Assembly (NCBI RefSeq): GCF_001399755.1
Contig: NZ_LJCP01000014.1
Location: 186,001-250,000 of the forward strand
Direction: 5' to 3'
DNA: 64,000 nt
Source of the DNA: Thiohalorhabdus denitrificans
GTDB lineage: Bacteria; Pseudomonadota; Gammaproteobacteria; Thiohalorhabdales; Thiohalorhabdaceae
Positions 1,194-51,932 of the stretch are shown piece by piece (positions within the stretch are counted from its first letter, which is position 1; the number at the start of each line of letters is the position of its first letter). The position numbers and the translations under genes are program-made. Below the pieces are notes generated by a model. It searched no databases. It saw nothing but the letters and a program-made list of their open reading frames with translations, and had not been told where the DNA came from.

Positions 1194-2495
1194 TCAGGAA
1201 CCGTTCGCCAACCACCGGTCCGCGCTCTCCAGAATGCGTTCCCGGGCGCCCCGGTTGGCCACCACTGCTTCCCGGGCCTTCCGACCCATGGGCTCCCGCC
1301 GGGCAGGATCACCGAACAGGTGAGACACCGTCTCACCGAGCTCGGCCCCCGAATGCACCTGCAGCGCGCCGCCCTGCTCCAGCAGCAAGGCGGAGATCTC
1401 GTGAAAATTGAACAGGTGGGGCCCGGTCACCACCGGAAGTCCCAAGGCTGCCGGCTCCAACAGATTGTGCCCCCCCGTTGGCACCAAGCTGCCCCCCACG
1501 AAGGCCACATCCGCCGCAGCGAACAGACAGGGAAGCTCACCCATGGTATCGGCCAGATAGATCGCGCTCTCCGACGGTTGGCAACCGCCGGAACGGCGGC
1601 ACACGGGGAATCCAGCATCCTCCACCACCCGCGCCGCCACTCCGAAACGCTCGGGATGGCGAGGAACCAGTACCAGCAGAGCCTCGGGGAAGTCGGTCAG
1701 CAGCTGGCGGTGGGCCCTCACCACCTGCTCCTCCTCTCCTTCATGGGTGCTGGCCGCCACCCAAACCGGACGTTCTTCGCCCCACCCCTGACGGAGCCCC
1801 CTGCCCTCTTCCACCACTCCCTCGGGAAGGCGCTGGTCGAATTTGAGATTGCCGGCGGTCCGGACCCGCTCCACCGGCGCCCCCAAGGCCCGGAAGCGCT
1901 CAGCATCGGCCTCGGTCTGCGTCAGAATGAGGGCGGCGCGGTGCAGCGGTCCGGTGATGATAGGGCGCAGCTTGCGGTAACCGCGGAACGAGCGGGGCGA
2001 CAGGCGGGCGTTCACTACCATGAGCGGGACGGCCCGGGCGTGGCAAGCCGCGAACAGGTTGGGCCACAGCTCCGTCTCCATAACCACTGCCAGGGCCGGA
2101 TCCACCCGCTGAAGAAAGCGCCGCACGGCACCCGGCAGGTCATAGGGCAGGTAGCTGTGGCAGACCGAATCCCCGAGCAGCGCCTTCACCCGATCCGAAC
2201 CGGTGGGGGTAGTCGTGGTCACCACTACCGTCCGGCGGGGATAGCGTTCCAGGAACCCCCGGATCAAGGGGACCGCAGCCTGGACCTCGCCCACGGAAAC
2301 CGCGTGGACCCAGATGGCGCCCGTTTGCGGTTCGAAGGGCGGGAAGCCGAACCGCTCTCGCCAGCGACGGCGATAGCCGGGGGCTTTCACTCCCCGGACC
2401 AGGAGCCGTCCCATGACCGCCGGCACCGCCAGATAGGCCAGTAGGCTATACAGGAGGCGGAGGTAGCGCTCGCTCTGGGGGATGCCGGTGGTCAT
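1194..2495 (-). CDS. waaA: 3-deoxy-D-manno-octulosonic acid (Kdo) transferase
   Basis: WaaA transfers Kdo from CMP-Kdo to the lipid A precursor at the cytoplasmic face of the inner membrane, the first step of LPS core assembly. The 433-residue length matches the family (about 425). An N-terminal membrane anchor (LLYSLLAYLAVPAVMGRLL) is followed by the Glycos_transf_N region with VHAVSVGEVQAA, whose Glu is the expected catalytic base. The C-terminal half has the GT-B donor-site signature FVGGSLVPTGGHNLLEPA. The start overlaps the hldE stop as ATGA, so translation is probably coupled. Together with hldE it forms a core-oligosaccharide unit facing away from the glycan locus. Confidence 0.95.
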   Translation of the reverse strand: MTTGIPQSERYLRLLYSLLAYLAVPAVMGRLLVRGVKAPGYRRRWRERFGFPPFEPQTGAIWVHAVSVGEVQAAVPLIRGFLERYPRRTVVVTTTTPTGSDRVKALLGDSVCHSYLPYDLPGAVRRFLQRVDPALAVVMETELWPNLFAACHARAVPLMVVNARLSPRSFRGYRKLRPIITGPLHRAALILTQTEADAERFRALGAPVERVRTAGNLKFDQRLPEGVVEEGRGLRQGWGEERPVWVAASTHEGEEEQVVRAHRQLLTDFPEALLVLVPRHPERFGVAARVVEDAGFPVCRRSGGCQPSESAIYLADTMGELPCLFAAADVAFVGGSLVPTGGHNLLEPAALGLPVVTGPHLFNFHEISALLLEQGGALQVHSGAELGETVSHLFGDPARREPMGRKAREAVVANRGARERILESADRWLANGS

Positions 2496-3919
2496 TCGGA
2501 CGCGGTTTGGCGGATGGCTTCCATCATCCGGCTACTGGAGCAGCCTTCCCGATACGGCAGTACCACCACCTCGCCACCCGCGGCGGTTACGGTGTCGTAG
2601 CCTGCGATGGCCTCGGGCCGGTAATCTCCGCCCTTGGCGAGCACATCCGGCCGGAGCCGTTCGATCAAGCGGGCCGGGGTGTCCTCGGAGAACGGAACCA
2701 CCCAGTCCACCGCCGCTAGCCCGGCCAGCACGGCCATACGCTGGTCCAGGGGGTTCACCGGGCGACCCTCCCCCTTGAGGCGCTGAACCGAATCGTCGTC
2801 GTTCACCGCCACCACCAGGCGGTCTCCCAGGGCCGCGGCCTCCTCCAGGTAGGCCACATGCCCGGCATGAAGCAGATCGAAACAGCCGTTGGTGAACACC
2901 ACGCGCTCGCCGTGGGCCTGGGCATCGGCCACCGAAAGGGCTAGGGCCTCCTCGTCCAGGACCCGTTTTCCACCCCGCTCCTCGGCCAACTGGGCGCGAC
3001 GAAGCTCCGCGGGGGTGACGCCCACCGTACCGAGCCGGCCCACCACCACCCCGGCGGCCAGGTTGGCCAGGGACACCGAGGCCTCCCAGCTTTCCCCGGC
3101 GGCCAACGCCGTCCCCAGGGTGGCAATTACCGTGTCCCCGGCACCGGTAACGTCGTAGACCTCCCGCGCCCGGGTGGGGAAATGGACCGTTTCCTGGCCC
3201 GCCCGCACCAGAGTCACCCCCTTCTCTCCCCGGGTAACCAGCAGGGCCTCCAGGTCCAGCTCACCGCGCAGGTGCTCCGCCTTGCGTACCACTTCCGCCT
3301 CATCCGCGCAGGGCCCCACCACAGCCTCGAACTCCTCCCGGTTAGGCGTGAGCGCGCTTGCCCCCCGGTACCGCCGGAAGTCATCCCCCTTGGGGTCCAC
3401 CAGCACCTTCTTGCCTTCGCACCGGGCAAGCCGGATCAGCTCCGCCGGGTCGGCCAGGGTGCCCTTGGCGTAATCCGAAAGGACGACCACCTCCGCCTGA
3501 GAGAGGAGCTCGTTGTACTGCTCCCGCAGGACGGGCCAGTCGCATTCTTCCAGACCGTCCTCGAAATCCAGCCGGATGAGCTGCTGGTTGCGGCTCAGGA
3601 TGCGCAGCTTTACCAGGGTCTTGATGCGGGGATTGCGCAGGAAGCGCCAGTCCACCCCTCCGTGCTGAAGGCACCGACCCAAAAGATCCGCTTCCTCGTC
3701 CTGTCCGGTGAAGCCCAGCAGTGTGCTCTGCCCACCCAGGGCGGCGGCATTGAGGGCCACGTTTCCGGCACCGCCAGCGCGGACCTCCTCACCATCCACG
3801 CGAACCACGGGCACCGGGGCCTCGGGGGAGATTCGCCCCGTGGCCCCGGACCAGTAGCGATCAAGCATGAGGTCGCCCACGACAAGCAGGCGGGCGGCGG
3901 AGAAATCAGGAATGGACAT
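2492..3919 (-). CDS. hldE: Bifunctional heptose-7-phosphate kinase / heptose-1-phosphate adenylyltransferase
   Basis: HldE makes ADP-heptose for the LPS inner core. Residues 1-320 are a PfkB/ribokinase domain with GGAGNVALNAAALGG near residue 49 and the catalytic motif DVTGAGDT at 256-263. Residues 338-475 are the cytidylyltransferase-like domain with FTNGCFDLLHAGH, the HxGH nucleotide-binding motif at 351-354. The total of 475 aa is close to the 477 of E. coli HldE. A much longer open frame exists upstream, but similarity begins at MSIPDFSAARLLVVGD, so ATG 3919 is chosen; ATG 3946 (nine residues longer) is possible. It overlaps waaA by 4 bp. Confidence 0.95.
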   Translation of the reverse strand: MSIPDFSAARLLVVGDLMLDRYWSGATGRISPEAPVPVVRVDGEEVRAGGAGNVALNAAALGGQSTLLGFTGQDEEADLLGRCLQHGGVDWRFLRNPRIKTLVKLRILSRNQQLIRLDFEDGLEECDWPVLREQYNELLSQAEVVVLSDYAKGTLADPAELIRLARCEGKKVLVDPKGDDFRRYRGASALTPNREEFEAVVGPCADEAEVVRKAEHLRGELDLEALLVTRGEKGVTLVRAGQETVHFPTRAREVYDVTGAGDTVIATLGTALAAGESWEASVSLANLAAGVVVGRLGTVGVTPAELRRAQLAEERGGKRVLDEEALALSVADAQAHGERVVFTNGCFDLLHAGHVAYLEEAAALGDRLVVAVNDDDSVQRLKGEGRPVNPLDQRMAVLAGLAAVDWVVPFSEDTPARLIERLRPDVLAKGGDYRPEAIAGYDTVTAAGGEVVVLPYREGCSSSRMMEAIRQTASE

Positions 3920-3999
3920 GGCGGCGACGGCCCTGTGGAATTCCATGCGGAATCTAACACAGCTGGGTCCGGCGGGGGGAACTTCGGGGGAGACGGCGT

Positions 4000-4027
4000 T
4001 TGATCCCGGCGGTGGGTTTGGTATCTT
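4000..4027 (+). promoter_or_regulatory. Possible sigma-70 promoter for the rightward glycan operon
   Basis: In the spacer between divergent hldE and the amidotransferase gene, TTGATC (4000-4005) and TATCTT (4022-4027) are separated by 16 bp. They would start transcription about 100 bp before the GTG start at 4136. The match is moderate and no other better pair was seen in the spacer. Confidence 0.3.
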
Positions 4028-4135: not shown

Positions 4136-5953
4136 GTGTGCGGCATCGCCGGCTACATGCAGCAGAACGGGGAAGCGACCGAGGTTCCGCTCGCAGCCCA
4201 GCTTCGCGCCCTGGCCCACCGCGGGCCGGACGATTCGGGCCATTTCCTGGAGGGTCCCACCGCCCTGGGCCACGCCCGCCTGTCCATCATCGACCCCGGC
4301 GGGGGCCACCAGCCCCTGTTCAGCCCCGACGGAAACCTGGTAGTGGTGGCCAACGGCGAGATCTACAACCACGTGGAGCTGCGGGAAACCCTGGCGGCCC
4401 GGGGACACCATTTCGCCACCGGCTCCGACAGCGAGGCCATCCTGCACGCCTACGCCGCCTACGGCGAGGATTTCCTGAACCATCTGGAAGGGATGTTCGC
4501 CTTCGCCCTCTACGACCGGTCCCGCAGGCGCCTGATCCTGGCCCGCGACCGGCTCGGCATGAAGCCCCTCTTCCTCGCCCCCTGGGCGGGGGGGATCGCC
4601 TTTGCCTCGGAGATCAAGGGGCTGTTCCCGGCCTGGCCCCACCGTCCGGAGGTAAACGCCGACGGCCTGGCGCGCTTCCTCCAGCACCAGTTCAGCGCGG
4701 GGCGGCGGACCCCCGTGGCGGGCGTGGAGCGCCTCCTGCCGGGGGAGGCCATGGTCGTGGAAGAGGGCGCCATCCAGCGCCGCTGGCAGTACTGGTCCCC
4801 CTGGGAGGTGGAGCCCCGCCCGATGGGCTTCGAGGAGGCCAGCGACCGCTTCGACCGGCTCATGGACACGGTCATGCGCCAGCACATGCGCACCGATGTC
4901 CCCTATGGGCTTTTCCTTTCCGGCGGGGTGGACTCGGCCCTGATCCTGGCGCTGCTGAGCCGGTACAGTGAAGAGCCCATCCGCACCTTCTCCGTGGGCT
5001 TCACCAGCGACCGCTTCCGGGACGAGCTCCCCGTCGCCGAGAACCTGGCCAACCGGCTCGGCGCCCATTTCACACCCCTGCGGCTCAATCCCGAACAGCT
5101 GCTCCACCGCTTCCCGCACACCGTCTGGGCCGCCGACGACCTGATGCGGGACTACGCCAACCTGCCCACCTCCCTTCTGGCCCGGGAGGCCAGCCAGGAC
5201 CTCAAGGTCGTGTTCACCGGCGAAGGGGGCGACGAAGCCTTCGCCGGGTACGGCCGCTATCGCACCTCAGCCCTGGAGCGGGGCTTCAAGGGGATGCTTC
5301 ATCCGGGAACAGGGGGATTCCGCGCCAGGGGCATGCTCCGGGGCCGCCAGGCCCACTGGCTGCTCCAGACGCCGCTACGTGAGGCCGTGGGCCGCTCCCG
5401 GCAACCCTTCATCGAGGCCTGGCGGTCCGCCCCCGGAAGCTGGAGCGACCTGCAGCGCATGCAGGGGACCGACATCACCACCGCCCTTCCGGACAACTTG
5501 CTCACCAAGGTGGACCGGATGCTCATGGCCTCCGGTGTGGAAGGGCGCGTGCCGCTGGTGGACCGCCGTCTGATAGAATTCGGTTTGGCCCTGCCGGACG
5601 GACTGAAAACCCGCAAGGGGCAGGGGAAAACCTTCCTCAAGGAATGGGCGGAGACCTACCTGCCGCCCGAGCACCTGTGGGGACGCAAGCAGGGATTCAA
5701 GGTCCCCGTCAGCGAGTGGCTGCAGGGGGATTTCCTCGACCGGCTCGAACGGCACCTGCCCCGGCAGGACGCGGTCCGAGACTGGTTCCGTCCGGAGGGA
5801 GTGCGCCGGTTGTGCCGCCGTCAGCGGCGCAAAGGGGATGCCGCCCAGCCCCTGTGGGCGATCTTCCAGTTCGCCCTCTGGTACCGCTTGATCATCGAGG
5901 AGAAAGGCCAGCAGCCGCCTCAGGATCGGGACCCACTCGAGCTACTGGATTAA
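4136..5953 (+). CDS. asnB: Asparagine synthase (glutamine-hydrolysing) family amidotransferase
   Basis: This 605-residue protein has an N-terminal Ntn glutaminase domain that requires Cys2, and the chosen GTG start places Cys at position 2 (MCGIAGYM). An AAGGAG lies 12 bp upstream. Other glutaminase motifs are HRGPDD (28-33) and NGEIYN (73-78). The synthetase domain has the PP-loop SGGVDS (262-267) and FTGEGGDEAFAGYGRY. Such AsnB-like enzymes in polysaccharide loci (as in exosortase/EPS clusters) may amidate a sugar acid or amino-acid substituent rather than make free asparagine. The sequence cannot separate these. It heads the glycan gene run, and its stop overlaps the next start (TAATG). 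Confidence 0.9.
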   Translation: MCGIAGYMQQNGEATEVPLAAQLRALAHRGPDDSGHFLEGPTALGHARLSIIDPGGGHQPLFSPDGNLVVVANGEIYNHVELRETLAARGHHFATGSDSEAILHAYAAYGEDFLNHLEGMFAFALYDRSRRRLILARDRLGMKPLFLAPWAGGIAFASEIKGLFPAWPHRPEVNADGLARFLQHQFSAGRRTPVAGVERLLPGEAMVVEEGAIQRRWQYWSPWEVEPRPMGFEEASDRFDRLMDTVMRQHMRTDVPYGLFLSGGVDSALILALLSRYSEEPIRTFSVGFTSDRFRDELPVAENLANRLGAHFTPLRLNPEQLLHRFPHTVWAADDLMRDYANLPTSLLAREASQDLKVVFTGEGGDEAFAGYGRYRTSALERGFKGMLHPGTGGFRARGMLRGRQAHWLLQTPLREAVGRSRQPFIEAWRSAPGSWSDLQRMQGTDITTALPDNLLTKVDRMLMASGVEGRVPLVDRRLIEFGLALPDGLKTRKGQGKTFLKEWAETYLPPEHLWGRKQGFKVPVSEWLQGDFLDRLERHLPRQDAVRDWFRPEGVRRLCRRQRRKGDAAQPLWAIFQFALWYRLIIEEKGQQPPQDRDPLELLD

Positions 5954-6801
5954 TGCAGGAATCCATCCACCGCCGGATCTTCGTCATGGGGTGCTCCCGC
6001 TCGGGAACCACCCTCCTCCAGCGGATGCTGGCCAATCACTCCCGCATCCATACCTTCCCGGAGACCGGGGTGTTCCTCAAGGCCCTGGGCATGCGCGGGC
6101 GGGAGCTGCCCTGGACCCGGCTGGGGCTGACCCTGGGCAAGGAGCGGAAGGTCCTCGGCCAACTGCGCGCCCAGAGCGACCTCCCCGAGGAGGAACAGCC
6201 ATCGCTCCCCCCTCGGCGTATTCGCCTGAATCGTTCGGTAGCGGACACAGTGGATTTCTTGGACCGGATGGCCCTAGCCCACGGGACCGATACCTGGGTG
6301 GAGAAAACGCCCCGGCATGTCCTCCACGCCGGACGAATCCAGGAGATGGTTCCCGATTCCTTGTGCATCCACGTCGTCCGCGACGGCCGGGACGTAGTTG
6401 CTTCCATTGTAGACCGAGCCCGAAAATTCCCTGATTTTTTTAGCCGCCAACTAAAACCGGACTACGCCATTCGCCAATGGAACAATTCGATAAGGGCCAC
6501 CTTAGAGGTACTAAACCAGGAAGGACATTTGGTGGTCCATTACGACTCCCTTGCCCATGAACCAGAGAAAATTCTACAAAAAGTTTGCAGGATCGCGAAG
6601 TTTCCCTATGAGGAAGAGATGGTCAAAAATCCGAGAAGTTTACCTTTCGTTGGGAATCAGGAATTTTGGAAAAGCAATGTGGAAGAAAAAATCGAGCCTT
6701 CTCCTTCCAAATTTCCTAACCTTTTCGATACTACAACCCAAAAACGGATAGAAAAGAGTTTGAGCTTAAAGGCATTTGATTCCCTAAAAGAAAACCTATA
6801 A
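5953..6801 (+). CDS. Sulfotransferase family protein (composition-mosaic gene)
   Basis: This 282-residue PAPS-dependent sulfotransferase-like protein has the 5'-phosphosulfate loop near the N-terminus (FVMGCSRSGTTLLQRML) and the 3'-phosphate-binding motif HVVRDGRDVVAS near residue 140. It presumably sulfates a glycan or lipid-linked sugar in the cytoplasm. The start overlaps the asnB stop by one base (TAATG). Oddly, the first half is as GC-rich as the chromosome, while from about 6,430 (after HVVRDGRDVVASIVDRA) the codons become AT-rich and stay so for 5.6 kb. The reading frame is intact across the change. This suggests a recombination junction inside the gene, with the acceptor-binding C-terminal half replaced. 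Confidence 0.85.
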   Translation: MQESIHRRIFVMGCSRSGTTLLQRMLANHSRIHTFPETGVFLKALGMRGRELPWTRLGLTLGKERKVLGQLRAQSDLPEEEQPSLPPRRIRLNRSVADTVDFLDRMALAHGTDTWVEKTPRHVLHAGRIQEMVPDSLCIHVVRDGRDVVASIVDRARKFPDFFSRQLKPDYAIRQWNNSIRATLEVLNQEGHLVVHYDSLAHEPEKILQKVCRIAKFPYEEEMVKNPRSLPFVGNQEFWKSNVEEKIEPSPSKFPNLFDTTTQKRIEKSLSLKAFDSLKENL

Positions 6802-6821
6802 CTATTAGGGCAATTTAACCA

Positions 6822-7577
6822 ATGATATATTCAAAAAAAGAAAATTTTATTTTCATAAAAACAACAAAAACCGCCGGTTCAAGCGTCGAGATCGCTTTAT
6901 CTTCCTTCTGCGGAGGGGAAGATATTTTAACCCCACTTACACCCGAGGATGAGGAAAAACGGGCCTCCCTTGCCGGAATAGGAGCACAAAACTTCGAATG
7001 GCCGGAAGAGGAAAAACCCTGGGGGTTATTACGGGACATAACAAAAAGACCAAATAGATACAGAAAATTTTTAAAACACCCTTTGACAAAAAAATACCCA
7101 GCTACATATAAGTTTGACGAGCATATGTCAGCACATGATGTCAAACTTTTACTAGGTGCGGAAATTTGGAAAAAGACCTTCACGTTTACTATAGAAAGAA
7201 ACCCGTGGGATAGGGCAATATCGTTTTTCTATTGGCAACAGAGAAACGGAAAAAAATTTAATACAATTGACCATTATGTTGAGAATAGAGCAAAAAACCA
7301 TAAACACAAATTAAGCAATTGGCATTTATACACTAAAGATGACCAATTTTTAGTTGATAAAGTCCTGAGATATGAGGACCTCAGTAAAGATTTTGAAAAT
7401 CTAGGGAACTTTTTAGGTTTAACAGGCTTAACCCTTCCTGAATATCAAGCAAAAGGGAATCACAGAAAGAACCGGGATCCGGCAGGAAAACTATTGAGTA
7501 AAAATGCTATTGATTTAATAGGGGAGGTTTGTAAGAAGGAAATTGAATTCTTCGGTTATGAGGTGCAGTATGATTAA
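6822..7577 (+). CDS. Sulfotransferase (Sulfotransfer_2-like) family protein
   Basis: This 251-residue protein begins with MIYSKKENFIFIKTTKTAGS, the variant phosphosulfate loop (K-T-A-G-S-S) of the carbohydrate sulfotransferase type. The second motif is FTIERNPWDRAISFFYW (R-N-P-W-D, about residue 125), the 3'-phosphate-binding site. It resembles the product at 15460-16116, which has HTAKTGGTS and FVRNPWDLQVSSWH. Composition is strongly AT-rich. It lies 20 bp after the preceding sulfotransferase, and its end overlaps the ligase gene by 8 bp, so all are probably cotranscribed. The acceptor is unknown. Confidence 0.85.
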   Translation: MIYSKKENFIFIKTTKTAGSSVEIALSSFCGGEDILTPLTPEDEEKRASLAGIGAQNFEWPEEEKPWGLLRDITKRPNRYRKFLKHPLTKKYPATYKFDEHMSAHDVKLLLGAEIWKKTFTFTIERNPWDRAISFFYWQQRNGKKFNTIDHYVENRAKNHKHKLSNWHLYTKDDQFLVDKVLRYEDLSKDFENLGNFLGLTGLTLPEYQAKGNHRKNRDPAGKLLSKNAIDLIGEVCKKEIEFFGYEVQYD

Positions 7578-8913
7578 ATTTCAAATTCTCCCTCTTCCCA
7601 GCTACCATTCACCTATAACATGGCTGGTGCTACCCTTCTTTTTTTTATATGTCTTTTCTTTTAGCGCGGAATTAAGCACAGCCATAGGAAACATTTCCTT
7701 AGGGTTTTTATTAGTATTTGGGTTAATCTGGTTTTTCAAAGAGTCGAAAGCCATAGCCGAGAAGGATTTATTATTATATTTGTCAATTTCATTTTTATTT
7801 TATATTGCAGCTCGAACCTTTTGGGCTGGCCAAGAATGGCCCCACCAATGGGAACAACAGTGGGATGCAGCCAAAGGTTGGCTTTTAACGGGTTTTCTGA
7901 CAGTTTATTTGATTTCATTCTGGGTATCTAAGCACAAGAATCCCAATAATTTGGCGGTTCTTGTCTTCTTATTATTCGCTTTGGGATTTACTTTCAGCAT
8001 ATTACCCTATTTTGAATTCCAAAATTTGATCCAAATCATTAATGGAAAAAGGGAGCAATTTGGCTTTGCGGGAACAGAAGCAGGCCTTTATTCGGCTTTT
8101 GGGATTATTCTAGTAATAACGTTGACACCCTTTGTAGTCAATCTAACTCCGCCCAAGTTTAAAATTTACCTTGTTTTTACATTAATTGCGCTAGTTTCTA
8201 TTTTGCTATTTGCGTTATTAGCGACAAAAGCACGGGGGGCATGGCTAGGTTTTGTTTTGGCTTTATCAGTTTCTTTTGTACTATTTATCTTTTCAAGAGA
8301 AGAAAATTTATTTCCAAAAAAGGATTTTTCAATAGTATTAACCGCGTTCTTAACGTTTCTTATGGTATTGATGGCCCTTCAATCGGATAAAATTTACTCC
8401 CGAATAACTTCCGAGGGCAAAGTAATAAGCCAAATAATAGAAGAGGGCGTTGATAAGGCAGAGGTTACTTCCATTTCCAAACGTGTCTTAATGTGGCGTT
8501 GGGGGATCAATAGGTGGATGGAGCGCCCCTGGTTCGGTTGGGGCCCTAGAAATTTGCATTTTGTGGCAAAAAAAGACCCAATTATAGAAAAGGTTCCAAA
8601 GCTTACTCACTTACATAACACTTTTATTGAGATACTGGTAAGATTTGGAGTTGTTGGTTTTGCCTTTTTCTTTTTTCAATGGATTTTGATATTTAATGCT
8701 ATAAGAACCACTTGGCAGAAAAGCATAATCCCCCCACCTTTGGCTAATTTCCTTATAGCAGGTTGGGTATTATGGGTTGTATGGAGTTTTTTTGCTTTTC
8801 GTCTTAACCACCCTGAAATGAGCTTTTTTATTGCTCTTTTAGGAGGGGTTCCTTATGGAATAAAAAAGCATTCCATAAACCATACGAAGAATCCCTCTCC
8901 AAACCCATATTGA
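7570..8913 (+). CDS. O-antigen ligase / polymerase (Wzy_C family) membrane protein
   Basis: This encodes a 447-residue polytopic inner-membrane protein with roughly ten to twelve hydrophobic segments. It has the Wzy_C (WaaL/Wzy) features: a segment beginning ATKARGAWLGFVLALSVSF, a periplasmic loop with RVLMWRWGINRWMERPWFGW, and the H-N-T-F-I-E motif (LTHLHNTFIEILVRFG). Such proteins either ligate O-antigen to lipid A-core or polymerise repeat units, and the family signature does not tell which. ATG 7570 is preferred over 7543 because GAGG lies 7 bp upstream and the overlap with the previous gene shrinks to 8 bp. Very AT-rich, unlike the chromosome. Confidence 0.85.
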   Translation: MIKFQILPLPSYHSPITWLVLPFFFLYVFSFSAELSTAIGNISLGFLLVFGLIWFFKESKAIAEKDLLLYLSISFLFYIAARTFWAGQEWPHQWEQQWDAAKGWLLTGFLTVYLISFWVSKHKNPNNLAVLVFLLFALGFTFSILPYFEFQNLIQIINGKREQFGFAGTEAGLYSAFGIILVITLTPFVVNLTPPKFKIYLVFTLIALVSILLFALLATKARGAWLGFVLALSVSFVLFIFSREENLFPKKDFSIVLTAFLTFLMVLMALQSDKIYSRITSEGKVISQIIEEGVDKAEVTSISKRVLMWRWGINRWMERPWFGWGPRNLHFVAKKDPIIEKVPKLTHLHNTFIEILVRFGVVGFAFFFFQWILIFNAIRTTWQKSIIPPPLANFLIAGWVLWVVWSFFAFRLNHPEMSFFIALLGGVPYGIKKHSINHTKNPSPNPY

Positions 8914-8927
8914 GCCGGGGTTAACCA

Positions 8928-10034
8928 TTGTATAGCCAGCCAACGATTTCTTTCTTTTTTGTCACATCGGGACATAGTGGCGTTGACCGCCTACTTAAAA
9001 ATTTAATTCCCGAAGTTGCCTCTCGAGGCTATCGCGTTGACTTGTTAAAAGTTTCAGGTCATGGACCCTACTTGGTAGACACACCTTCCAATGTGCGAAT
9101 CATAAATTTGGGATCTTCCCATGCTTATTCCAGTTTGATCCCCTTAAAGAAATACTTAGAGAAAGAAAAGCCCGGTTTCCTTATCTCTGGGAAGGATAAA
9201 GTTAACCGGGTCGCTTTTTGGGCTAACAATTTTTCTAAAGAAAAATCAAAGCAGGTTTTCCGTTATGGAACCATGCCCTCTATTGAAATAAAAAACCGAG
9301 GGTTTTTTGAAAGAAAAATACAAAAATTTTTCATAAAATTTGCATACCCAAAGGTGTTTAAGGTTTTTGCCGACTCAAAAGGAGTAATGGACGATTTATC
9401 CACCTATATGGAAGGGAAAACTCAAAATCTAACTGTTGGACCAAGCCCGGTTATCCCGGATTCTTTATCCAATGAAAAATTTTCCCGACCTGAACACCCA
9501 TGGTATCAACCAGGAGAACCTCCAGTAATCCTGGGTGTCGGGGAGCTTTCGGGCAGGAAGGATTTTAAAACTTTACTAAAAGCCTTTTCTGATTTACGAA
9601 GCCGGAGGGATTGTCGCCTAATCCTTTTGGGTAAGGGGCGTAAAAAAGACGAATTATCCCAACTTTCAAAGGAACTAGGAATTTTCCGGGATGTTGAATT
9701 TATGGGTTTTGTAAATAACCCTTATCCATTTATTTACCATGCATCAGCCCTCGCCCTTACTTCAAGATGGGAAGGGTTGGGGTTCGTACTCATTGAAGCA
9801 ATGGCTTTGGGTACCCCAGTGGCATCCACGGATTGTCCTAGTGGCCCTCGGGAAATCCTCCAGGAGGGCAAATTAGGGCCCTTGGTAAAAGTCGGTGATT
9901 GGGAGGAATTGGGAAAGGGGTTGGAAAGGATTTTAGCTTCTCCTCCCTCTGCTTCAACTCTGAAAAATGCCGTCAAACATTATAGTGTTTCGCAGGCAAC
10001 CAACAAGTTTCTTGCCGAATTGGGCCTGAATTAG
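8928..10034 (+). CDS. Glycosyltransferase family 4 protein
   Basis: This 368-residue GT-B fold sugar transferase has an N-terminal acceptor region with VTSGHSGVDRLLKNLIPE and a C-terminal donor-binding domain. The donor domain carries ILGVGELSGRKDFKTLLKAF and an E-x7-E-like site in SRWEGLGFVLIEAMALGTPV, followed by STDCPSGPREIL. The same CPSGP motif recurs in the products at 10075 and 14309, making a paralogue trio. TTG is the only plausible start near the beginning (GGGG about 10 bp upstream), so the start is moderately uncertain. It is AT-rich and sits 14 bp after the ligase gene. Donor and acceptor sugars cannot be deduced. Confidence 0.85.
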   Translation: MYSQPTISFFFVTSGHSGVDRLLKNLIPEVASRGYRVDLLKVSGHGPYLVDTPSNVRIINLGSSHAYSSLIPLKKYLEKEKPGFLISGKDKVNRVAFWANNFSKEKSKQVFRYGTMPSIEIKNRGFFERKIQKFFIKFAYPKVFKVFADSKGVMDDLSTYMEGKTQNLTVGPSPVIPDSLSNEKFSRPEHPWYQPGEPPVILGVGELSGRKDFKTLLKAFSDLRSRRDCRLILLGKGRKKDELSQLSKELGIFRDVEFMGFVNNPYPFIYHASALALTSRWEGLGFVLIEAMALGTPVASTDCPSGPREILQEGKLGPLVKVGDWEELGKGLERILASPPSASTLKNAVKHYSVSQATNKFLAELGLN

Positions 10035-10074
10035 CTTTAATTTTTAATAAAAAACTTCGGTTTTCAATAAAATA

Positions 10075-11226
10075 ATGCCCAACACCAAAACAAACCACAT
10101 CTCTCCAGGAAGGCACCCAAAACGTTTGGCCATTTTAATGCCATCCCGTTCTTGGGGGGGGATAGAGCGGGTAATAGTCAACCTGATTAATCAACTTTCT
10201 ATTTCCGGAATTCAGGTTGATCTACTTTTGAGCCGCGACCGGGAAGTGCCTTACCCAGAGGAGTTAAATCCGAATACGAATGTGATCGATCTTGGAACTT
10301 ACCACAAGCTCTCGGCTATACTCCCAGTAGCAAGATACCTACAAAAATTCAAACCAGATGCTCTTTTAACCGCAAAAGATCACGGTGCTAATGTTGGTAT
10401 AATTTCTGCAGAACTTTCCAGGACAAATACCCCAGTATTTGTCTCCATTCATAGCAGCCTTAGTCAAACTGTAACCAAATTTACCAGAAAATTTTGGGTT
10501 AAGCACCTTTACCCAAGAGCCAATGCAATAATTACGGTTTCTCAAGGGGCTGCAAGAGGACTTTGCACGACCTTCAAAATTAAACCGGAAAAAGTTCACG
10601 TCATTTATAACCCTATAACCAACCAGTCTCTCTTTCATCTTGCGAATGAGTCTCCTAACCACCCTTGGCTGCTGAACAACCGTTCGGCCCCTGTAATTCT
10701 CGGGGTTGGCCGACTTAGCTCTTCTAAAGATTTTCCAACCTTAATCAAAGCATTCAAAAAAGTCCGGGAAGAAATGCCCGCACGATTACTTATTATTGGG
10801 GAGGGAGAAAAAAGGGAATATTTAGAAAACTTAATAGAGGAATTGGGGTTGCAAAATGATGTGGACCTTCCTGGTTTTTATTCCAATCCTTATTCTATCA
10901 TGAAAAAGGCTGACCTTTTTGCCCTTTCTTCTGCGTGGGAAGGCTTCGGGAATGTTTTGGCGGAGGCTATCAGCCTGGGTACTCCAGCCGTATCAACAAA
11001 CTGCCCTAGTGGCCCTTCTGAAATCTTGAATGGCGGGCTATATGGTCCCCTTGTCCCGGTTGGAGATGTTGATTCAATGGCGAAGGCCATGAAGGAAGTT
11101 CTGGTTAACCCGCCAAATCCTGAATCCCTTCGTAAAGCGGGTCTCCGTTTCAGCCAGGAAAACATTGCCCTCGAATACCAAAAAATTATGGGGCTTTCCC
11201 CTTCAGAAGACGAAACTGAAAAATGA
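10075..11226 (+). CDS. Glycosyltransferase family 4 protein
   Basis: This 383-residue paralogue of the preceding enzyme has the N-terminal LAILMPSRSWGGIERVIVNL, the donor-domain start ILGVGRLSSSKDFPTLIKAF, and catalytic-region SSAWEGFGNVLAEAISLGTP followed by STNCPSGPSEIL. It is predicted cytoplasmic or peripheral at the inner membrane, adding one sugar of the surface glycan. Composition is AT-rich. A 40-bp AT-rich gap separates it from the preceding gene, and its last codons overlap the next start (ATGA), which implies coupling. Its closest relative in the window by eye is the GC-rich gene at 14309. Confidence 0.88.
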   Translation: MPNTKTNHISPGRHPKRLAILMPSRSWGGIERVIVNLINQLSISGIQVDLLLSRDREVPYPEELNPNTNVIDLGTYHKLSAILPVARYLQKFKPDALLTAKDHGANVGIISAELSRTNTPVFVSIHSSLSQTVTKFTRKFWVKHLYPRANAIITVSQGAARGLCTTFKIKPEKVHVIYNPITNQSLFHLANESPNHPWLLNNRSAPVILGVGRLSSSKDFPTLIKAFKKVREEMPARLLIIGEGEKREYLENLIEELGLQNDVDLPGFYSNPYSIMKKADLFALSSAWEGFGNVLAEAISLGTPAVSTNCPSGPSEILNGGLYGPLVPVGDVDSMAKAMKEVLVNPPNPESLRKAGLRFSQENIALEYQKIMGLSPSEDETEK

Positions 11227-12092
11227 CCATTCCTAAATCTTCCCAACCCATAATTATACTCGGCATGCACCGCTCCGGTACTACCATGGTAGCGGAGGCT
11301 CTTAGAAAATTAGGTCTTTTTTTGGGTTCTCACCGTGACCGTAACTGCGAAGCTTGGTTCTTCGTCCGTGCAAATAGTTGGGTGTTACGGCAAGCCCGTA
11401 GCCACTGGACCCAACCCTTACCAATATTTCAACTGCTGGATAACCCAAAGCTATTCGCTTTAATACGGGATCAACTCAAACATTTTTTGCATAGCCCTCG
11501 TTATGCCCAATACCTAGTGCCCTTGGGGCTTTGGGGTTATGGCCACCATCCCCCTCAACGCATCTGGGGTTGGAAGGATCCTAGGAACACCCTAACCCTT
11601 CCTCTCTGGCTCTCAATTTTCCCTCATGCTCGAATTGTTCATATCCGCCGACATGGGGTAGATGTAGCCCAGAGCCTTTATTCTCGCCATAACAAATCGC
11701 TGGCCAAAACCCAAAACAAGCTTAATAAAAAGAAACTTTTTAACAAACTTGGTTTTCTTCCCAACAATCTCGGTAATAACCCCCGTTGCTCCAGCCTTGA
11801 GGGCGCTTTTTCCCTCTGGGAGGAATACCTGGAGGCAGCAAGTACAAATCTCGCGTCAAACTCCCTTGATGTTCTAGATATGGAATTTGAATCGATTTTA
11901 CAATCCCCTTTTAAATCTCTTGAAAAACTTTCTCATTTTTCCGGGATTAAACCTTCCAGCACCGATTTGAATCGGGTTGCACAGGATTTCGAAGCCTCCC
12001 GGGCTTTTGCCTTTCGTACCTCTCCTCAATTACAGGAATTTGGGAACCAAGTTGACAACCGCCTTCGCCTTTATGGCTATAGTGCATTTTAA
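11223..12092 (+). CDS. Sulfotransferase family protein
   Basis: This 289-residue protein has a phosphosulfate-binding loop near the N-terminus (IILGMHRSGTTMVAEALRKL) and a predicted second site at HIRRHGVDVAQSLYSRH (about residues 140-156). The WGWKDPRNT segment is typical of bacterial sulfotransferase-like (Sulfotransfer_3) proteins. The start overlaps the upstream glycosyltransferase stop by 4 bp (ATGA). AT-richness is milder than at 7-10 kb, and this is the last gene of the AT-rich island, since the next gene returns to GC-rich codons. The family includes some nucleotide-binding proteins that are not sulfotransferases, so activity is inferred. Confidence 0.78.
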   Translation: MTIPKSSQPIIILGMHRSGTTMVAEALRKLGLFLGSHRDRNCEAWFFVRANSWVLRQARSHWTQPLPIFQLLDNPKLFALIRDQLKHFLHSPRYAQYLVPLGLWGYGHHPPQRIWGWKDPRNTLTLPLWLSIFPHARIVHIRRHGVDVAQSLYSRHNKSLAKTQNKLNKKKLFNKLGFLPNNLGNNPRCSSLEGAFSLWEEYLEAASTNLASNSLDVLDMEFESILQSPFKSLEKLSHFSGIKPSSTDLNRVAQDFEASRAFAFRTSPQLQEFGNQVDNRLRLYGYSAF

Positions 12093-12113
12093 CCATGGAA
12101 CTTTCTCGCGCTA

Positions 12114-13145
12114 ATGCAGATCCTGATAATCCGTCTCAGCGCCATCGGCGACGTGGTCATGGCCTCCGCGGTCATCCCCGCCTTGCGCCGTGCCTACCCC
12201 GAAGCCCGCATTGACTGGTTGGCAGAGCCGCCAGCCGATGCCGTGCTCCGGGCCCAGCCCGAGCTCAACGAGATCATTACCTGGCCCAAGGGTGATTGGA
12301 AGCGGCTGCTGCGGCAGGGACGCTTACGGGCTTTGACCCGGGAGGTAATAGGCTTCGCCCGGCGGTTGCGTGGAAACCGCTATGACTTGGTCCTTGACCT
12401 CCAAGGACTGGCCAAAAGCGGTCTCTGGGCCCGGGTTACCCGGGCCCCGCGACGGGTCGGCCTCGGCTCCCGCGAAGGGAGCCAGTATTTGATGACGGAG
12501 GTGGTTACCCGGCCGCGGGGCGACGAGCGGATTGCCTCGGAATACCTCCGGTTAGTGGAGGCCCTGGGGATCGACCCGGGCGCCTTCCCCATGGCTCCGG
12601 CGGTATCCGATGGTGACCGGGCGAATGCGGAAGCGCTCCTGGCGGCAAAGGGGCTCACCGGGAATTTTGCCGTGGTCGCCCCGTTCACTACACGCCCCCA
12701 GAAGCACTGGGTTGAGGGGCGGTGGGCCCCCTTAGCCGACCGGATTCAACAAGAACTGGGGCTGCCCGTGGTGATGGTTGGGGGGCCCGGGGACCAAGAG
12801 GCCGCCCGGCGGATCGAGAGCCAGGCTGGGGAAGGGCTGGTCGATCTAACGGGGCAAACGGGGCTTACCGAGACCTTCGCCCTTTTGGACGAGGCATCGC
12901 TTTGCCTCGGGGTGGATACCGGGCTCACCCATGCCGCCATCGGCTTCGGCACCCCCACGGTGGCCCTTTTCGGCTCTACCCGTCCCTACCTCGATCCCGC
13001 CACAGAGAATGCCCACGTTCTGTACTCCGCCCTGCCCTGCTCTCCCTGCCGGCGTCGTCCCACCTGTGGGGGCACCTTCGATTGCATGGCGGCCTTTGAG
13101 GTGGATCAGGTTCTGGATGCGGCCCGGGAAGTGATTCGGTCATGA
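12114..13145 (+). CDS. Glycosyltransferase family 9 (heptosyltransferase-like)
   Basis: This 343-residue ADP-heptose:LPS heptosyltransferase-type enzyme starts MQILIIRLSAIGDVVMASAV, the usual GT9 opening. It has DLVLDLQGLAKSGLWARVT in the N-terminal domain and the donor-site signature GVDTGLTHAAIGFGTPTVALFGS near residue 270. A C-terminal cysteine cluster (CSPCRRRPTC) is common in WaaC/WaaF-like proteins. It acts at the cytoplasmic face of the inner membrane on lipid A-core. GC-rich codon use resumes exactly at this gene, marking the right edge of the AT-rich island. Its stop overlaps the next start (ATGA). Confidence 0.9.
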   Translation: MQILIIRLSAIGDVVMASAVIPALRRAYPEARIDWLAEPPADAVLRAQPELNEIITWPKGDWKRLLRQGRLRALTREVIGFARRLRGNRYDLVLDLQGLAKSGLWARVTRAPRRVGLGSREGSQYLMTEVVTRPRGDERIASEYLRLVEALGIDPGAFPMAPAVSDGDRANAEALLAAKGLTGNFAVVAPFTTRPQKHWVEGRWAPLADRIQQELGLPVVMVGGPGDQEAARRIESQAGEGLVDLTGQTGLTETFALLDEASLCLGVDTGLTHAAIGFGTPTVALFGSTRPYLDPATENAHVLYSALPCSPCRRRPTCGGTFDCMAAFEVDQVLDAAREVIRS

Positions 13146-14236
13146 AGGTCCTGCACATCGAGACCGGCCGCAACCTCTATGGCGGGGCCCGACAGGTGCT
13201 CTACCTGCTGGAGGGTTCGGCCCAACGGGAGGATTGCGAGAGCCATTTGGCCTGCCCGGCGGGCAGCGCCATCGGCCAGGCCGCGGAAGACTCCGGCATC
13301 GCAGTTCATCCTTTGACCCGGAGTGGGGATCTCAGCCTGGGGATGGCCCTCCAGCTCTACCGTCTCATCCGCCGGGTCGGGCCTGACCTGGTCCATGTCC
13401 ACAGCCGGCGGGGGGCCGACCTCTGGGGCGGGGTGGCCGCGCGCTGGGCGGGGGTTCCGGCCCTGGTCAGCCGGCGCGTGGACAACCCCGAGCCGCCTTG
13501 GTGGGCGGTCCGGAAGTATTCCCTCTACGAGCGCGTCATTGCCATCTCGGAGGGGATTCGCCAGGTGCTGCTCCGGGAAGGCCTATCCGCGGAGTATGTG
13601 GTCACCGTCCCCAGCGCGGTAGACAGTACGCAGTTCTCCCAGCCCTGTGATCCCGGTTGGTTCCAAGCCGAATTCGACCTGCCCGCGCACGGTCCCGTCA
13701 TCGGCGTCATCGCCCAGCTCATCGAACGCAAGGGCCACACTTACCTCCTGCAGGCCCTGCCCGCCCTGCGGGAACGGTTCCCGGGACTGCACGTCCTTTT
13801 TCTGGGGAAAGGCCCCTTGCGCGAACACCTGGAGAGGGAGGTCCAGGAACGGGGCCTCGACGATTGCGTCCGATTCACCGGCTTCCGCTCCGACCTGCCC
13901 CGGATCCTTCCCTGCCTGGACCTGGTGGTCCACCCCGCGCTCATGGAAGGCCTGGGCGTTTCCCTCCTCCAGGCCGCGGCCAGCGGGGCACCCATCGTCG
14001 GGAGCCGGGCCGGGGGCATTCCGGAGGTGGTCCGGGACGGGGTGAACGGGAGGCTGGTAACCCCGGGAGCCCCCGACGAGCTGGTCGAGGCGGTGGGGGA
14101 AATCCTGGCGGCTCCGGACACAGCCAAACGCATGGGGGGAGCCGGCCGGGAACTGGTGAAACAGGAGTTCGACATCTCCGCCATGGTCGCGGGCAATTAC
14201 CGGGTTTACCGGGAGATCCTTGCCCCAACGGCCTGA
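13142..14236 (+). CDS. Glycosyltransferase family 4 (LPS core-type)
   Basis: This 364-residue GT-B transferase has an N-terminal nucleotide-fold half containing LVHVHSRRGADLWGG. The donor domain has VIAQLIERKGHTYLLQALPAL, then HPALMEGLGVSLLQAAASGAPIV, followed by GSRAGGIPEVV, the standard family-4 donor site with two Glu residues. The 4-bp overlap with the heptosyltransferase gene suggests a shared step in core or O-chain assembly. It is chromosome-like in composition and less like the CPSGP trio than those are to each other. Confidence 0.88.
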   Translation: MKVLHIETGRNLYGGARQVLYLLEGSAQREDCESHLACPAGSAIGQAAEDSGIAVHPLTRSGDLSLGMALQLYRLIRRVGPDLVHVHSRRGADLWGGVAARWAGVPALVSRRVDNPEPPWWAVRKYSLYERVIAISEGIRQVLLREGLSAEYVVTVPSAVDSTQFSQPCDPGWFQAEFDLPAHGPVIGVIAQLIERKGHTYLLQALPALRERFPGLHVLFLGKGPLREHLEREVQERGLDDCVRFTGFRSDLPRILPCLDLVVHPALMEGLGVSLLQAAASGAPIVGSRAGGIPEVVRDGVNGRLVTPGAPDELVEAVGEILAAPDTAKRMGGAGRELVKQEFDISAMVAGNYRVYREILAPTA

Positions 14237-14308
14237 GGCCACCTTGCCGCTCCCCCGCCCCATGCGTAGACTCTGAGCCGCCGCACCGAACCAATCCGAG
14301 CCCAGGCC

Positions 14309-15430
14309 ATGAACCTGCCCAAACGAATCGCCCTATTCCTCTCCTTCTCCGGTGACGGCGGGGTGGAGCGCATGATGCTCAACCTCGCCGGCGCCATCGC
14401 CCGCCTGGGCCATCCGGTAGACCTGGTGCGAGCCAAGGCCGAAGGGGGCCACGACCAGGCGCCCGAAGGCGTGCGGGTCATCGACCTGGGCACGGCCCAC
14501 ACCCGCACCAGCCTCAAGCCGCTCACCCGCTACCTCCGGCGGGAGCGACCCGACGCCATGTTGGCGGCCAAGGACCGGGCCAACCGGGTAGCCATCCGCG
14601 CCCGCCAGCGCGCCGGGGTCGATACCCGGCTGGCGGTGCGGCTGGGCACCCACCTCTCCCGCTCCCTGGAGGGCCGCTCGGGGCTGAAGAAGTGGCTGCG
14701 CTACCGCCCCATGCGCGCCGCCTACCCCCATGCCGACGCCATCGTGGCCGTCTCCGCCGGCGTGGCCGAGGACACCGCCCGCATCACCGGCATCCCCCAG
14801 CAGGCCATCCACGTCATCCCCAACCCGGTGGTGACGCCCGGCATGCGGGAAGCGGCCCGCCAGCCGGTCGGCCACCCCTGGCTGGAAGGGGATTCGCGGG
14901 AGATCCCGGTGGTCGTGGCCGCTGGCCGGCTCACCCGGCAGAAGGACTTCCCCACCCTGCTGCGTGCCTTCGCCCGGCTGCGCGAGGAGCGCCCCGCTCG
15001 CCTGATCATTCTGGGCGAGGGCCGCGACCGGCCGGAGCTTGAGGCCCTGGCCGCGGAGCTGGGGATCGCCGGGGACCTGGACCTACCCGGCTTCGCCGCC
15101 AACCCCTATGCCTTCATGGCCGGGGCGGACCTGTTCGCCCTGTCCTCCGCCTGGGAGGGCAGCCCCAACGTCCTCACCGAGGCCCTGGCTCTGGGCACCC
15201 CCGTGGCGGCCACGGACTGCCAGAGCGGTCCCCGGGAGACCCTGGCCGGCGGCCGCTACGGCCCCCTGGTGCCCGTGGGCGATGCCGAGGCCCTGGGGCG
15301 GGCCCTGGCCGACACCCTGGCCGAGCCACCGGAATCGGCCTTCCTGCAGGAGGCCGCCGCCCCCTTCGAGGCCGAGGCCAGCGCCCGGGCGTACCTGGCG
15401 GCCCTGGGCGTTCGCTCCGACACCCCCTGA
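14309..15430 (+). CDS. Glycosyltransferase family 4 protein
   Basis: This 373-residue GT-B transferase has an N-terminus (FLSFSGDGGVERMMLNLAGA) and C-terminal donor motifs (SSAWEGSPNVLTEALALGTP then ATDCQSGPRETL) that line up with the AT-rich paralogues at 8928 and 10075, though its codons are fully GC-rich. It follows the previous gene after 72 bp and precedes another sulfotransferase by 29 bp. It may therefore be the resident counterpart of the imported transferases. Substrates are unknown. Confidence 0.88.
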   Translation: MNLPKRIALFLSFSGDGGVERMMLNLAGAIARLGHPVDLVRAKAEGGHDQAPEGVRVIDLGTAHTRTSLKPLTRYLRRERPDAMLAAKDRANRVAIRARQRAGVDTRLAVRLGTHLSRSLEGRSGLKKWLRYRPMRAAYPHADAIVAVSAGVAEDTARITGIPQQAIHVIPNPVVTPGMREAARQPVGHPWLEGDSREIPVVVAAGRLTRQKDFPTLLRAFARLREERPARLIILGEGRDRPELEALAAELGIAGDLDLPGFAANPYAFMAGADLFALSSAWEGSPNVLTEALALGTPVAATDCQSGPRETLAGGRYGPLVPVGDAEALGRALADTLAEPPESAFLQEAAAPFEAEASARAYLAALGVRSDTP

Positions 15431-15459
15431 CACCGAGCCAACTTCCGCGAGACCCCGCC

Positions 15460-16116
15460 ATGCTGCTGTCGTACCGCCAACAGTTCCTGTTCGTGCACAC
15501 CGCCAAGACCGGGGGCACTAGCGTCCGGGCCGCCCTGGAAAGCTACAAGTGGCGAGATCCCTACCGCATCCCCCAGTTCATCTGCAGCCGGCTGTCGCAC
15601 CTCACCGGGCACAAGCTGGGCCTCAAGTTCCCCCGCCACGCCAAGGCGGTAACGGCCAAGGAGATGCTGCCCAACGACGTCTTCGAGTCCCTGTTCAAGT
15701 TCGCCTTCGTGCGCAACCCCTGGGACCTGCAGGTGAGCTCCTGGCACCACATCCGGCGGGAGCGGCCCCACGTCCTGGAAGGCATCAACGATTTCGAGAC
15801 CTTCCTGCGCTATAAGCTGGAGGGCGACCGGCCCTACCACTACATCCTGGACGCCTCGGTGGAGCCCCAGTGGCACCACCTCATGGACCTGGAAGGCCGC
15901 TGCATCGTGGACTTCATCGGCCGCTACGAGAATCTGGCGGCGGATTTCGACGAGGTCTGCCGGCGCATCGGCTTCGCGAAGCCGCCCCGGCTTCCCCACA
16001 AGCGCAAGGCCGGGGACCGGGAGGACTACCGCCGCTACTACAGCGATCCCGCCGCCGAGCTGGTCGCCCGCCACTTCGCCGCCGATATCGCCAACCTGGG
16101 CTACACCTTCGACTAG
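15460..16116 (+). CDS. Sulfotransferase (Sulfotransfer_2-like) family protein
   Basis: This 218-residue protein has the phosphosulfate loop HTAKTGGTSVRAAL at residues 13-26 and the 3'-phosphate motif FVRNPWDLQVSSWH at about residues 84-97. It aligns by eye with the AT-rich product at 6822 but is GC-rich. It closes the glycan run and is followed by a REP element and a strong bidirectional terminator. As the fourth sulfotransferase-like gene in 12 kb it supports a sulfated surface glycan, presumably using PAPS made elsewhere. Confidence 0.85.
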   Translation: MLLSYRQQFLFVHTAKTGGTSVRAALESYKWRDPYRIPQFICSRLSHLTGHKLGLKFPRHAKAVTAKEMLPNDVFESLFKFAFVRNPWDLQVSSWHHIRRERPHVLEGINDFETFLRYKLEGDRPYHYILDASVEPQWHHLMDLEGRCIVDFIGRYENLAADFDEVCRRIGFAKPPRLPHKRKAGDREDYRRYYSDPAAELVARHFAADIANLGYTFD

Positions 16117-16121: not shown

Positions 16122-16146
16122 TTCGCGGCCACTGGCCGCTCCCACA
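16122..16146 (-). repeat. Single REP element
   Basis: A reverse-orientation REP (GCGGCCACTGGCCGCTCCCA core) lies 5 bp after the sulfotransferase stop. It has the same stem type as the copies at 272 and 19276. Confidence 0.75.
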
Positions 16147-16214
16147 AGGGCCGCTTCGTGGTACCGAAGCCCCTGACCTGGAGGGGCGTAGCCCAAAGGC
16201 CCGCCCCAACAAAG

Positions 16215-16245
16215 AAAAGGCCGACCCCGAGGGGTCGGCCTTTTC
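16215..16245. terminator. Bidirectional Rho-independent terminator
   Basis: A 13-14 bp perfect stem (AAAAGGCCGACCCC, two-base loop GA, then its complement) is flanked by A and T runs. It can therefore end both the rightward glycan operon and the leftward porin gene. Confidence 0.92.
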
Positions 16246-18650: not shown

Positions 18651-18674
18651 ACGGGGCGGTCCGTCAGGGAGCAT

Positions 18675-18749
18675 GTGGGAGCGGTCCGTGACCGCGACCG
18701 GACCTTCCATCTTGGGCAAGAGGAAGTCGCAGTCACGGACCGCTCCCAC
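18675..18749. repeat. REP doublet (REPIN) next to the RAYT gene
   Basis: Two REP units in opposite orientation (18675-18692 and 18732-18749) carry an identical 18-bp head and stem beginning GTGGGAGCGG. They form a perfect inverted repeat around a 39-bp spacer. The stem (GGTC/GACC) differs from the other REP types in the window. It lies 28 bp beyond the stop of the transposase gene at 18777. Confidence 0.85.
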
Positions 18750-18776
18750 ACCCTGCTTTCAGGCTCCCTAAGGCCT

Positions 18777-19259
18777 TCAGATCACTCTGCCTTTCCCGTC
18801 CAGCCAAGCGGCATCCCAGTGCGGATAGTCTTCAATCCGCTCCACCAGGCCTGCCCGCAGCGGATTGGCAATCACGTAGCGCGCCAAAGCCCGGAGGTCC
18901 TCCTCCTTGCGCACGGCGCGGTCGTGGAAGCCTCGTTGCCACACCGGCACCCCCTTGGTACCCCGAAAGGTATTAATCCGCTGCGCGGAGTAGGTTTTCA
19001 CCGACCGCATCAAGGCGGTCAGGGAGAGGGGCCGCTCCAGTTGCACCAGCCAGTGGAGGTGGTCGGGCATAACGACGAAGGCCAAGGAACGCACCTCTCC
19101 CCGGTTATGGGGCACCCGCAGGCAGGCGACCAGGGAGCGGGCAAGAGGCAGGGACTCGAAAAGGGCTTCGCGGCCGGCCGTCACCGTAGTCAGGAGATAG
19201 GCCCTCCCGGGCTCGGAGTATCGGCCCCGTCGTAGCCGGTGATAGCCCTTTTCCGGCAT
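18777..19259 (-). CDS. REP-associated tyrosine transposase (RAYT, Y1_Tnp family)
   Basis: This 160-residue single-strand DNA transposase of the IS200/IS605-related Y1 family has the HUH-type metal motif HLH at 67-69 (in FVVMPDHLHWLVQL). The predicted catalytic tyrosine Tyr128 lies in ALARYVIANPLRAGLVE. RAYTs recognise REP hairpins with a GTAG/GTGG head, and REP elements flank this gene on both sides, which strongly supports the assignment. ATG 19259 is chosen because AAGGGG lies 8 bp upstream and the N-terminus RLRRGRYSEPGRAYLLTTVT is the usual start; the longer frame reads through a REP. The gene looks intact, so it may still spread REPs. Confidence 0.93.
   Translation of the reverse strand: MPEKGYHRLRRGRYSEPGRAYLLTTVTAGREALFESLPLARSLVACLRVPHNRGEVRSLAFVVMPDHLHWLVQLERPLSLTALMRSVKTYSAQRINTFRGTKGVPVWQRGFHDRAVRKEEDLRALARYVIANPLRAGLVERIEDYPHWDAAWLDGKGRVI

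Positions 19260-51246: not shown

Positions 51247-51932
<686 letters not shown>

Follow-up and report, generated by a model that had tools for sequence, protein, structure and literature searches.

A putative lipopolysaccharide core operon in Thiohalorhabdus denitrificans with four sulfotransferase genes, one of them in a conserved pair with a glycosyltransferase gene

Eleven genes of the same direction lie at positions 4136-16116 of a 64,000-nucleotide stretch of the Thiohalorhabdus denitrificans genome (contig NZ_LJCP01000014.1, positions 186,001 to 250,000; hereafter the window), and they probably constitute a lipopolysaccharide (LPS) core or outer-core operon that makes a sulfated lipopolysaccharide. 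They encode an AsnB-type amidotransferase, a Wzy_C protein, one GT9 and four GT4 glycosyltransferases (GTs) and four sulfotransferases, ST1 to ST4, the last of which would sulfate a sugar added by the neighbouring glycosyltransferase, GTd. The genes overlap at four junctions and nine of their ten gaps are no longer than 40 nucleotides, and it is because of this tight and overlapping spacing that they are read as an operon, which starts beside hldE and kdtA on the opposite strand and ends at a terminator-like palindrome (Table 1). The four sulfotransferases differ in standing: ST4 belongs to a widely conserved family with a glycosyltransferase partner of its own, whereas ST1, ST2 and ST3 are sporadic.

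A preliminary description of this DNA had reported four sulfotransferase-like genes of at least two families, amid five glycosyltransferases, an O-antigen ligase/polymerase and an amidotransferase, and this inventory is confirmed (the AsnB-type protein carries Cys2 as well as SGGVDS). The profile search that it proposed places all four proteins above the curated Pfam cut-offs, ST1 and ST3 as Sulfotransfer_3 and ST2 and ST4 as Sulfotransfer_2. The 5'-phosphosulfate loop and the R-x7-S 3'-phosphate motif can be read directly in each (SRSGTT and RDGRDVVAS in ST1, KTAGSS and RNPWDRAIS in ST2, HRSGTT and RHGVDVAQS in ST3, KTGGTS and RNPWDLQVSS in ST4). Relatives preserve these sites to differing degrees. 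The loop residues K/T/G/T/S and R-x7-S are invariant among 57 aligned ST4 sequences, all 57 of which match PF03567; K16, G19, R126 and S134 are invariant among seven ST2 sequences, and GMHRSGT and RHGVD.A.S are kept in six ST3 sequences from similar loci. The phmmer matches of ST1 are CurM-type sulfotransferase domains and tyrosylprotein sulfotransferases, and its relatives, of which two were aligned, keep the 3'-phosphate motif and have the P-loop altered to SGGS. AlphaFold models of ST4 and ST2 (predicted local distance difference test, pLDDT, 92 and 78, respectively) find sulfotransferases or the same-fold retinol dehydratase as their best PDB matches. In NCBIfam, ST2-ST4 have no match and ST1 has only a distant one, to NoeE, and the Stf0 profile matched none of the four proteins at E up to 0.1. 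Across the whole 2.87-Mb genome there are just two Sulfotransfer_2 matches, ST2 and ST4, and two of the five places that match Sulfotransfer_3 with E<1e-10 fall in the operon; four further places with sulfotransferase matches lie outside it. Since such matches are few genome-wide and concentrate in the operon, their clustering is not a matter of chance. Collectively, the sequences indicate four genuine-looking sulfotransferases of the type that uses 3'-phosphoadenosine 5'-phosphosulfate (PAPS), in a surface-glycan operon.

An equal status for the four can be ruled out, as ST4 shows 53-69% identity across families while the relatives of ST1-ST3 are sporadic and only 27-45% identical. At a cut-off of E=1e-30, ST4 orthologues (53-69%) are present in 37 of 370 evenly drawn Gammaproteobacteria. 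Each best match has E<1e-75, whereas the distant relatives seen in another genome draw reach only E 1e-20 or weaker, and on account of this gap ST4 is, on sequence grounds, a discrete family, carried by roughly one in ten of the sampled Gammaproteobacteria and also by relatives of Desulfacinum infernum. A scan of GTDB species genomes returned over 500 relatives. The top 80, which come from Chromatiaceae, Nevskiaceae, Methylococcaceae and deltaproteobacterial groups, are 60-69% identical along the full length. The family spans two phyla and includes members from Methylococcus capsulatus, Allochromatium and Thiocapsa. The earlier statement that sulfated LPS or capsule is uncommon in free-living gammaproteobacteria therefore fails at the level of genes, and sulfated O-polysaccharide and capsule are in any case documented in Cobetia and Vibrio (PMC11766843, PMC11641403). 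No description of an ST4-type LPS sulfotransferase family or of its GT partner was found in the open-access literature, and the family appears to be undescribed so far, though LPS sulfation itself is known.

The glycosyltransferase partner is indicated by co-occurrence. With membership of the GTd family set at E<=1e-70, members are found in 36 of the 37 Gammaproteobacteria that have ST4 and in none of 38 that lack it; counted by family the figures are 21 of 22 against 0 of 38 (Fisher p=3e-15). In 31 of the 36 genomes GTd immediately precedes ST4 in the same orientation, as read from coordinates. A second sample, which may share species with the first and is thus not fully independent of it, gave GTd-family members in 26 of 27 named ST4-positive Gammaproteobacteria and, in the class of Desulfacinum infernum, in 7/7 ST4-positive against 2/35 ST4-negative genomes. 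Of the matches in ST4-negative genomes (G418, G440), one is nearest to the GTa clade and the other is ambiguous. In a tree of 141 GTs all 47 ST4-adjacent copies fall into one clade of 65 (Shimodaira-Hasegawa-like approximate likelihood ratio, SH-aLRT, 98), and GTa and GTb of the operon are placed outside it. Purple sulfur bacteria, in which GTd and ST4 are unlinked, have their copies in the same clade, and that these organisms keep both genes without adjacency argues for a functional tie between them. We propose from these sequence patterns that GTd and ST4 are a dedicated glycosyltransferase-sulfotransferase pair that puts a sulfated sugar on the LPS core.

That the sulfated sugar would belong to the LPS core is suggested by genomic context. 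The window contains the LPS-core genes kdtA, hldE and a GT9 gene, and genes of the same kinds recur in relatives: 37 of the 52 ST4 loci that have a GTd-family gene contain one or more of kdtA, hldE, a heptosyltransferase gene, gmhA, gmhB and lpxK. A frequent order in ST4 loci is a glnE-ilvE edge, hepT-GTc, asnB, an array of GT4 genes, GTd and ST4. The preliminary description had left the product as sulfated LPS or capsule. The flanking genes and the recurrence of hldE, kdtA, heptosyltransferase, gmhA/gmhB, lpxK and ilvE-glnE favour the first of these, specifically the LPS core, and capsule is disfavoured, given an operon without exporter, flippase or nucleotide-sugar genes. No kps-type ABC exporter and no KpsS/KpsC was found among the open reading frames of the operon, to which the search was confined rather than extended to the rest of the genome. 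Nor does the operon hold a flippase, Wzz, an initiating transferase or nucleotide-sugar genes, which also speaks against the broader alternative, in our judgement unlikely, that the product is a sulfated O-antigen or capsule repeat made with the help of other loci, the core genes being mere neighbours. That alternative draws support from the Wzy_C protein within the operon, from the resemblance of the low-GC cassette of ST2, ST3, GTa and GTb to a swapped O-antigen block, from a second glycan locus elsewhere that has a flippase-like gene, sulfotransferases and SQD1-like genes, and from the sulfated O-polysaccharides and capsules of Cobetia and Vibrio (PMC11766843, PMC11641403). Against it, the ST4-GTd pair stands beside genes for heptose, 3-deoxy-D-manno-octulosonic acid (Kdo) and lipid A across phyla, unlike a variable O-antigen gene.

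The second surface-glycan locus of the genome (L105, G000:C14:38001-58000) comprises two SQD1-like genes, the flippase-like gene and two sulfotransferases. One of the SQD1-like genes was compared with plant UDP-sulfoquinovose synthase (E=1e-135), and the gene content suggests that the polymer of that locus contains sulfoquinovose. In the operon itself, the AsnB-type protein, which among curated families fits asparagine synthase (TIGR01536) best, is the sole basis on which an amidated polymer had been predicted, and it may amidate a sugar acid; AsnB-type genes are found in 19 of 103 ST4 loci. A further locus (L108, G000:C10:166000-185000), with AsnB-type and GT genes and a Sulfotransfer_3 match, is possibly a polysaccharide locus of the PEP-CTERM/exosortase type.

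A sulfotransferase of this kind requires a supply of PAPS. A single adenosine 5'-phosphosulfate (APS) kinase is encoded in the genome. It forms the C-terminal half of a 570-aa fusion protein with ATP sulfurylase (Sat-CysC), the gene of which (L109:8336-10048, minus strand) directly adjoins that of a galU-like nucleotidyltransferase (L109:10124-11098, minus strand). The preliminary description had proposed a search for cysD/N/C, and a gene for PAPS synthesis is indeed present in the form of the fusion, with CysD absent: no PF01507 protein (CysH or CysD; PAPS/APS reductase) was found in the genome by a search that was positive in 14/14 control genomes. Because PAPS can be made and no PAPS/APS reductase is visible, sulfation is favoured as its use, and from gene content PAPS looks to be reserved for sulfation. 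Among other genomes, an APS kinase is present in 29 of 37 ST4-positive and 22 of 38 ST4-negative Gammaproteobacteria (p=0.08) and in 29/29 named ST4-positive isolates (status judged from record titles). It was dropped as a discriminating co-occurrence marker in view of the former figures and of the absence of discrimination in the class of Desulfacinum; its distribution is compatible with PAPS dependence, short of proof. In that class the APS kinase lies in a long open frame (at least 592 aa) in all seven ST4-positive genomes (G376, G377, G378, G409, G419, G420, G421), as in a Sat-CysC fusion, and mostly in a short frame in ST4-negative genomes. The seven are related, so that the long frame represents one or few events.

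Several observations weigh against an LPS-core operon with PAPS-dependent sulfation. In purple sulfur bacteria ST4 and GTd occur away from recognised LPS-core genes; as ST4 sits there in a dapF-DUF484-xerC neighbourhood, context is uninformative on its acceptor. The Foldseek scores of the ST4 and ST2 models are modest (E ~1e-3, TM-score ~0.5). A clear APS kinase is missing from 8 of the 37 ST4-positive Gammaproteobacteria, the eight being drafts of 70 to 430 contigs; the difference among genomes of at most 50 contigs (15 of 15 ST4-positive against 10 of 19 ST4-negative; p=0.002) comes from a split made post hoc; and in the class of Desulfacinum the enzyme fails to separate ST4-positive from ST4-negative genomes (7/7 against 28/35; p=0.33). 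The unseen kinase in eight genomes is also an argument for the view that the four proteins, or some of them, are sulfotransferases in fold only and do not sulfate a glycan here, being inactive or using another acceptor or donor, as are the lack of a characterised member in these families (NCBIfam is blank for ST2-ST4 and offers ST1 only the distant NoeE) and the changed P-loop in ST1 relatives. We consider this improbable. Both PAPS motifs are invariant in ST4, including in the eight genomes without APS kinase, T. denitrificans can make PAPS with no reductase seen to consume it, and the kinase is present in every one of the named isolates.

The operon is not uniform in composition. The genes asnB, hepT, GTc, GTd and ST4 have a GC content of 66-74%, compared with 37-46% for ST2, Wzy_C, GTa, GTb and ST3 and 54% for ST1. 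The middle (ST1-ST3, Wzy_C, GTa and GTb) is thus variable and, since its GC is lower than that of the edges, was probably inserted later. In a congener the same edges (hldE on one side; ST4 followed by a porin and a lactamase-fold gene on the other) frame another middle, which includes relatives of ST2 and ST3. The GTd-ST4 pair of the congener is ~70% identical, occupies the same relative position and likewise adjoins the porin and the lactamase-fold gene. The GC steps, together with repetitive extragenic palindromic (REP) elements at the operon edge, might be taken to mean that mobile glycan genes came together here by chance and make no joint product. This is scarcely credible in the face of the tight and overlapping junctions, the retention of GTd-ST4 at the same place in the congener and its recurrence in many families. 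Promoter-like sites are no more numerous than in shuffled sequence.

REP-type palindromes (TGTGGGAGCGGY...RCCGCGAC) are found in the window at 272-352, 16122-16146, 18674-19446, 22158-22182 and 51762-51829, with ~11 good copies against 0.1 expected in shuffles, several of them as facing pairs. They flank an open reading frame (18777-19367, minus strand) whose predicted product resembles a REP-associated tyrosine transposase of the HUH type.

Table 1. Features of the operon and its left flank (positions in the window)
Feature	Position	Strand	Evidence
kdtA/waaA, Kdo transferase, left flank	1194..2495	-	NCBIfam NF004388 E=5e-164, 545.8 bits vs cut-off 438
hldE, ADP-heptose synthesis, left flank	2492..4003	-	NCBIfam NF008454 E=6e-213, residues 29-500; true start slightly inside 4003 end
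AsnB-type glutamine amidotransferase	4136..5953	+	PF00733, PF13537; TIGR01536 above cut-off; N-terminal V/M-C-G-I-A-G, SGGVDS loop
ST1, Sulfotransfer_3 protein	5953..6801	+	Pfam E=2e-27
ST2, Sulfotransfer_2 protein, GC 37%	6822..7577	+	Pfam E=1e-7
Wzy_C O-antigen ligase/polymerase, GC 37%	7570..8913	+	PF04932 E=3e-24
GTa, GT4 glycosyltransferase, GTd paralogue	8928..10034	+	PF00534 E=2e-34; 40% identity to GTd
GTb, GT4 glycosyltransferase, GTd paralogue	10075..11226	+	PF00534 E=3e-36; 43% identity to GTd
ST3, Sulfotransfer_3 protein, GC 46%	11223..12092	+	Pfam E=1.5e-17
GT9 heptosyltransferase-like (hepT)	12114..13145	+	PF01075 E=9e-38; TIGR02193/TIGR02195 below cut-off
GTc, GT4 glycosyltransferase, recurrent in ST4 loci	13142..14236	+	PF13692 E=4e-35; 46-57% homologues in many ST4 loci
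GTd, GT4 glycosyltransferase, proposed dedicated ST4 partner	14309..15430	+	co-occurrence with ST4; clade of ST4-adjacent copies
ST4, Sulfotransfer_2 protein, widely conserved family	15460..16116	+	Pfam E=3e-11
Terminator-like palindrome at operon end	16214..16245	n/a	14-pair stem with T run

In the mechanism that we favour, PAPS would be made in the cytoplasm by the fused ATP sulfurylase-APS kinase while the heptose/Kdo core is extended by the GT9 and GT4 enzymes. GTd would add one particular sugar and ST4 would move the sulfate of PAPS onto a hydroxyl of that residue, as gene pairing, co-occurrence and motifs suggest. ST1, ST2 and ST3 with GTa, GTb and Wzy_C would be strain-variable accessories that add or sulfate further sugars; the Wzy_C protein would ligate or polymerise an O-chain after export, and a sugar acid would perhaps be amidated by the AsnB-type enzyme.

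LPS sulfation is regarded as a rarity of rhizobia and some marine strains. Judging from the present distribution, sulfated lipopolysaccharide appears to be more common than has been assumed. It is conceivable, although we would put this no higher than a tentative proposal, that ST4-GTd is a general two-gene module, present in sulfate reducers and in about one in ten Gammaproteobacteria (many purple sulfur bacteria, Methylococcus and Nevskiaceae among them), by which the LPS core receives a single conserved sulfated sugar. If so, a sulfated LPS core would be a widespread and overlooked envelope type, not a marine curiosity. As ST4 and its dedicated GT occur in culturable organisms of two phyla, the commonness of such a core is directly testable. 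For enzymology, the ST4 family provides bacterial carbohydrate sulfotransferases that are short and strongly conserved, and ST4 could be used as a genome marker that predicts sulfated envelopes.

Both components have recognisable counterparts. GTd matches the structures of the LPS-core glycosyltransferases WaaB (5n7z, E=2e-12) and WaaG (8b5q, E=8e-7), with which it shares the GT4 family and the LPS context, but the GTd family is distinct from them, has tandem paralogues and is tied to ST4. Sulfotransfer_2 (PF03567) includes animal carbohydrate sulfotransferases, which have family, motifs and fold in common with ST4, whereas ST4 is bacterial, has just 218 aa and matches any solved structure only weakly in sequence. 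The clusters for sulfated capsule and O-polysaccharide documented in Cobetia and Vibrio (PMC11766843, PMC11641403) likewise have sulfotransferase genes amid glycosyltransferases and PAPS synthesis in marine or halophilic Gammaproteobacteria. However, they are of the capsule (kps/ABC) or O-antigen type with the PAPS genes inside, whereas here there is a putative LPS-core operon with the PAPS synthase encoded elsewhere and a conserved GTd-ST4 pair. According to the account of Cronan and Keating (2004) given in PMC12445080, LpsS of Sinorhizobium meliloti is an LPS sulfotransferase and in this respect resembles the proposed role of ST4; on the same account it belongs to the Stf0 family, whereas ST2 and ST4 are Sulfotransfer_2 and ST1 and ST3 Sulfotransfer_3 proteins.

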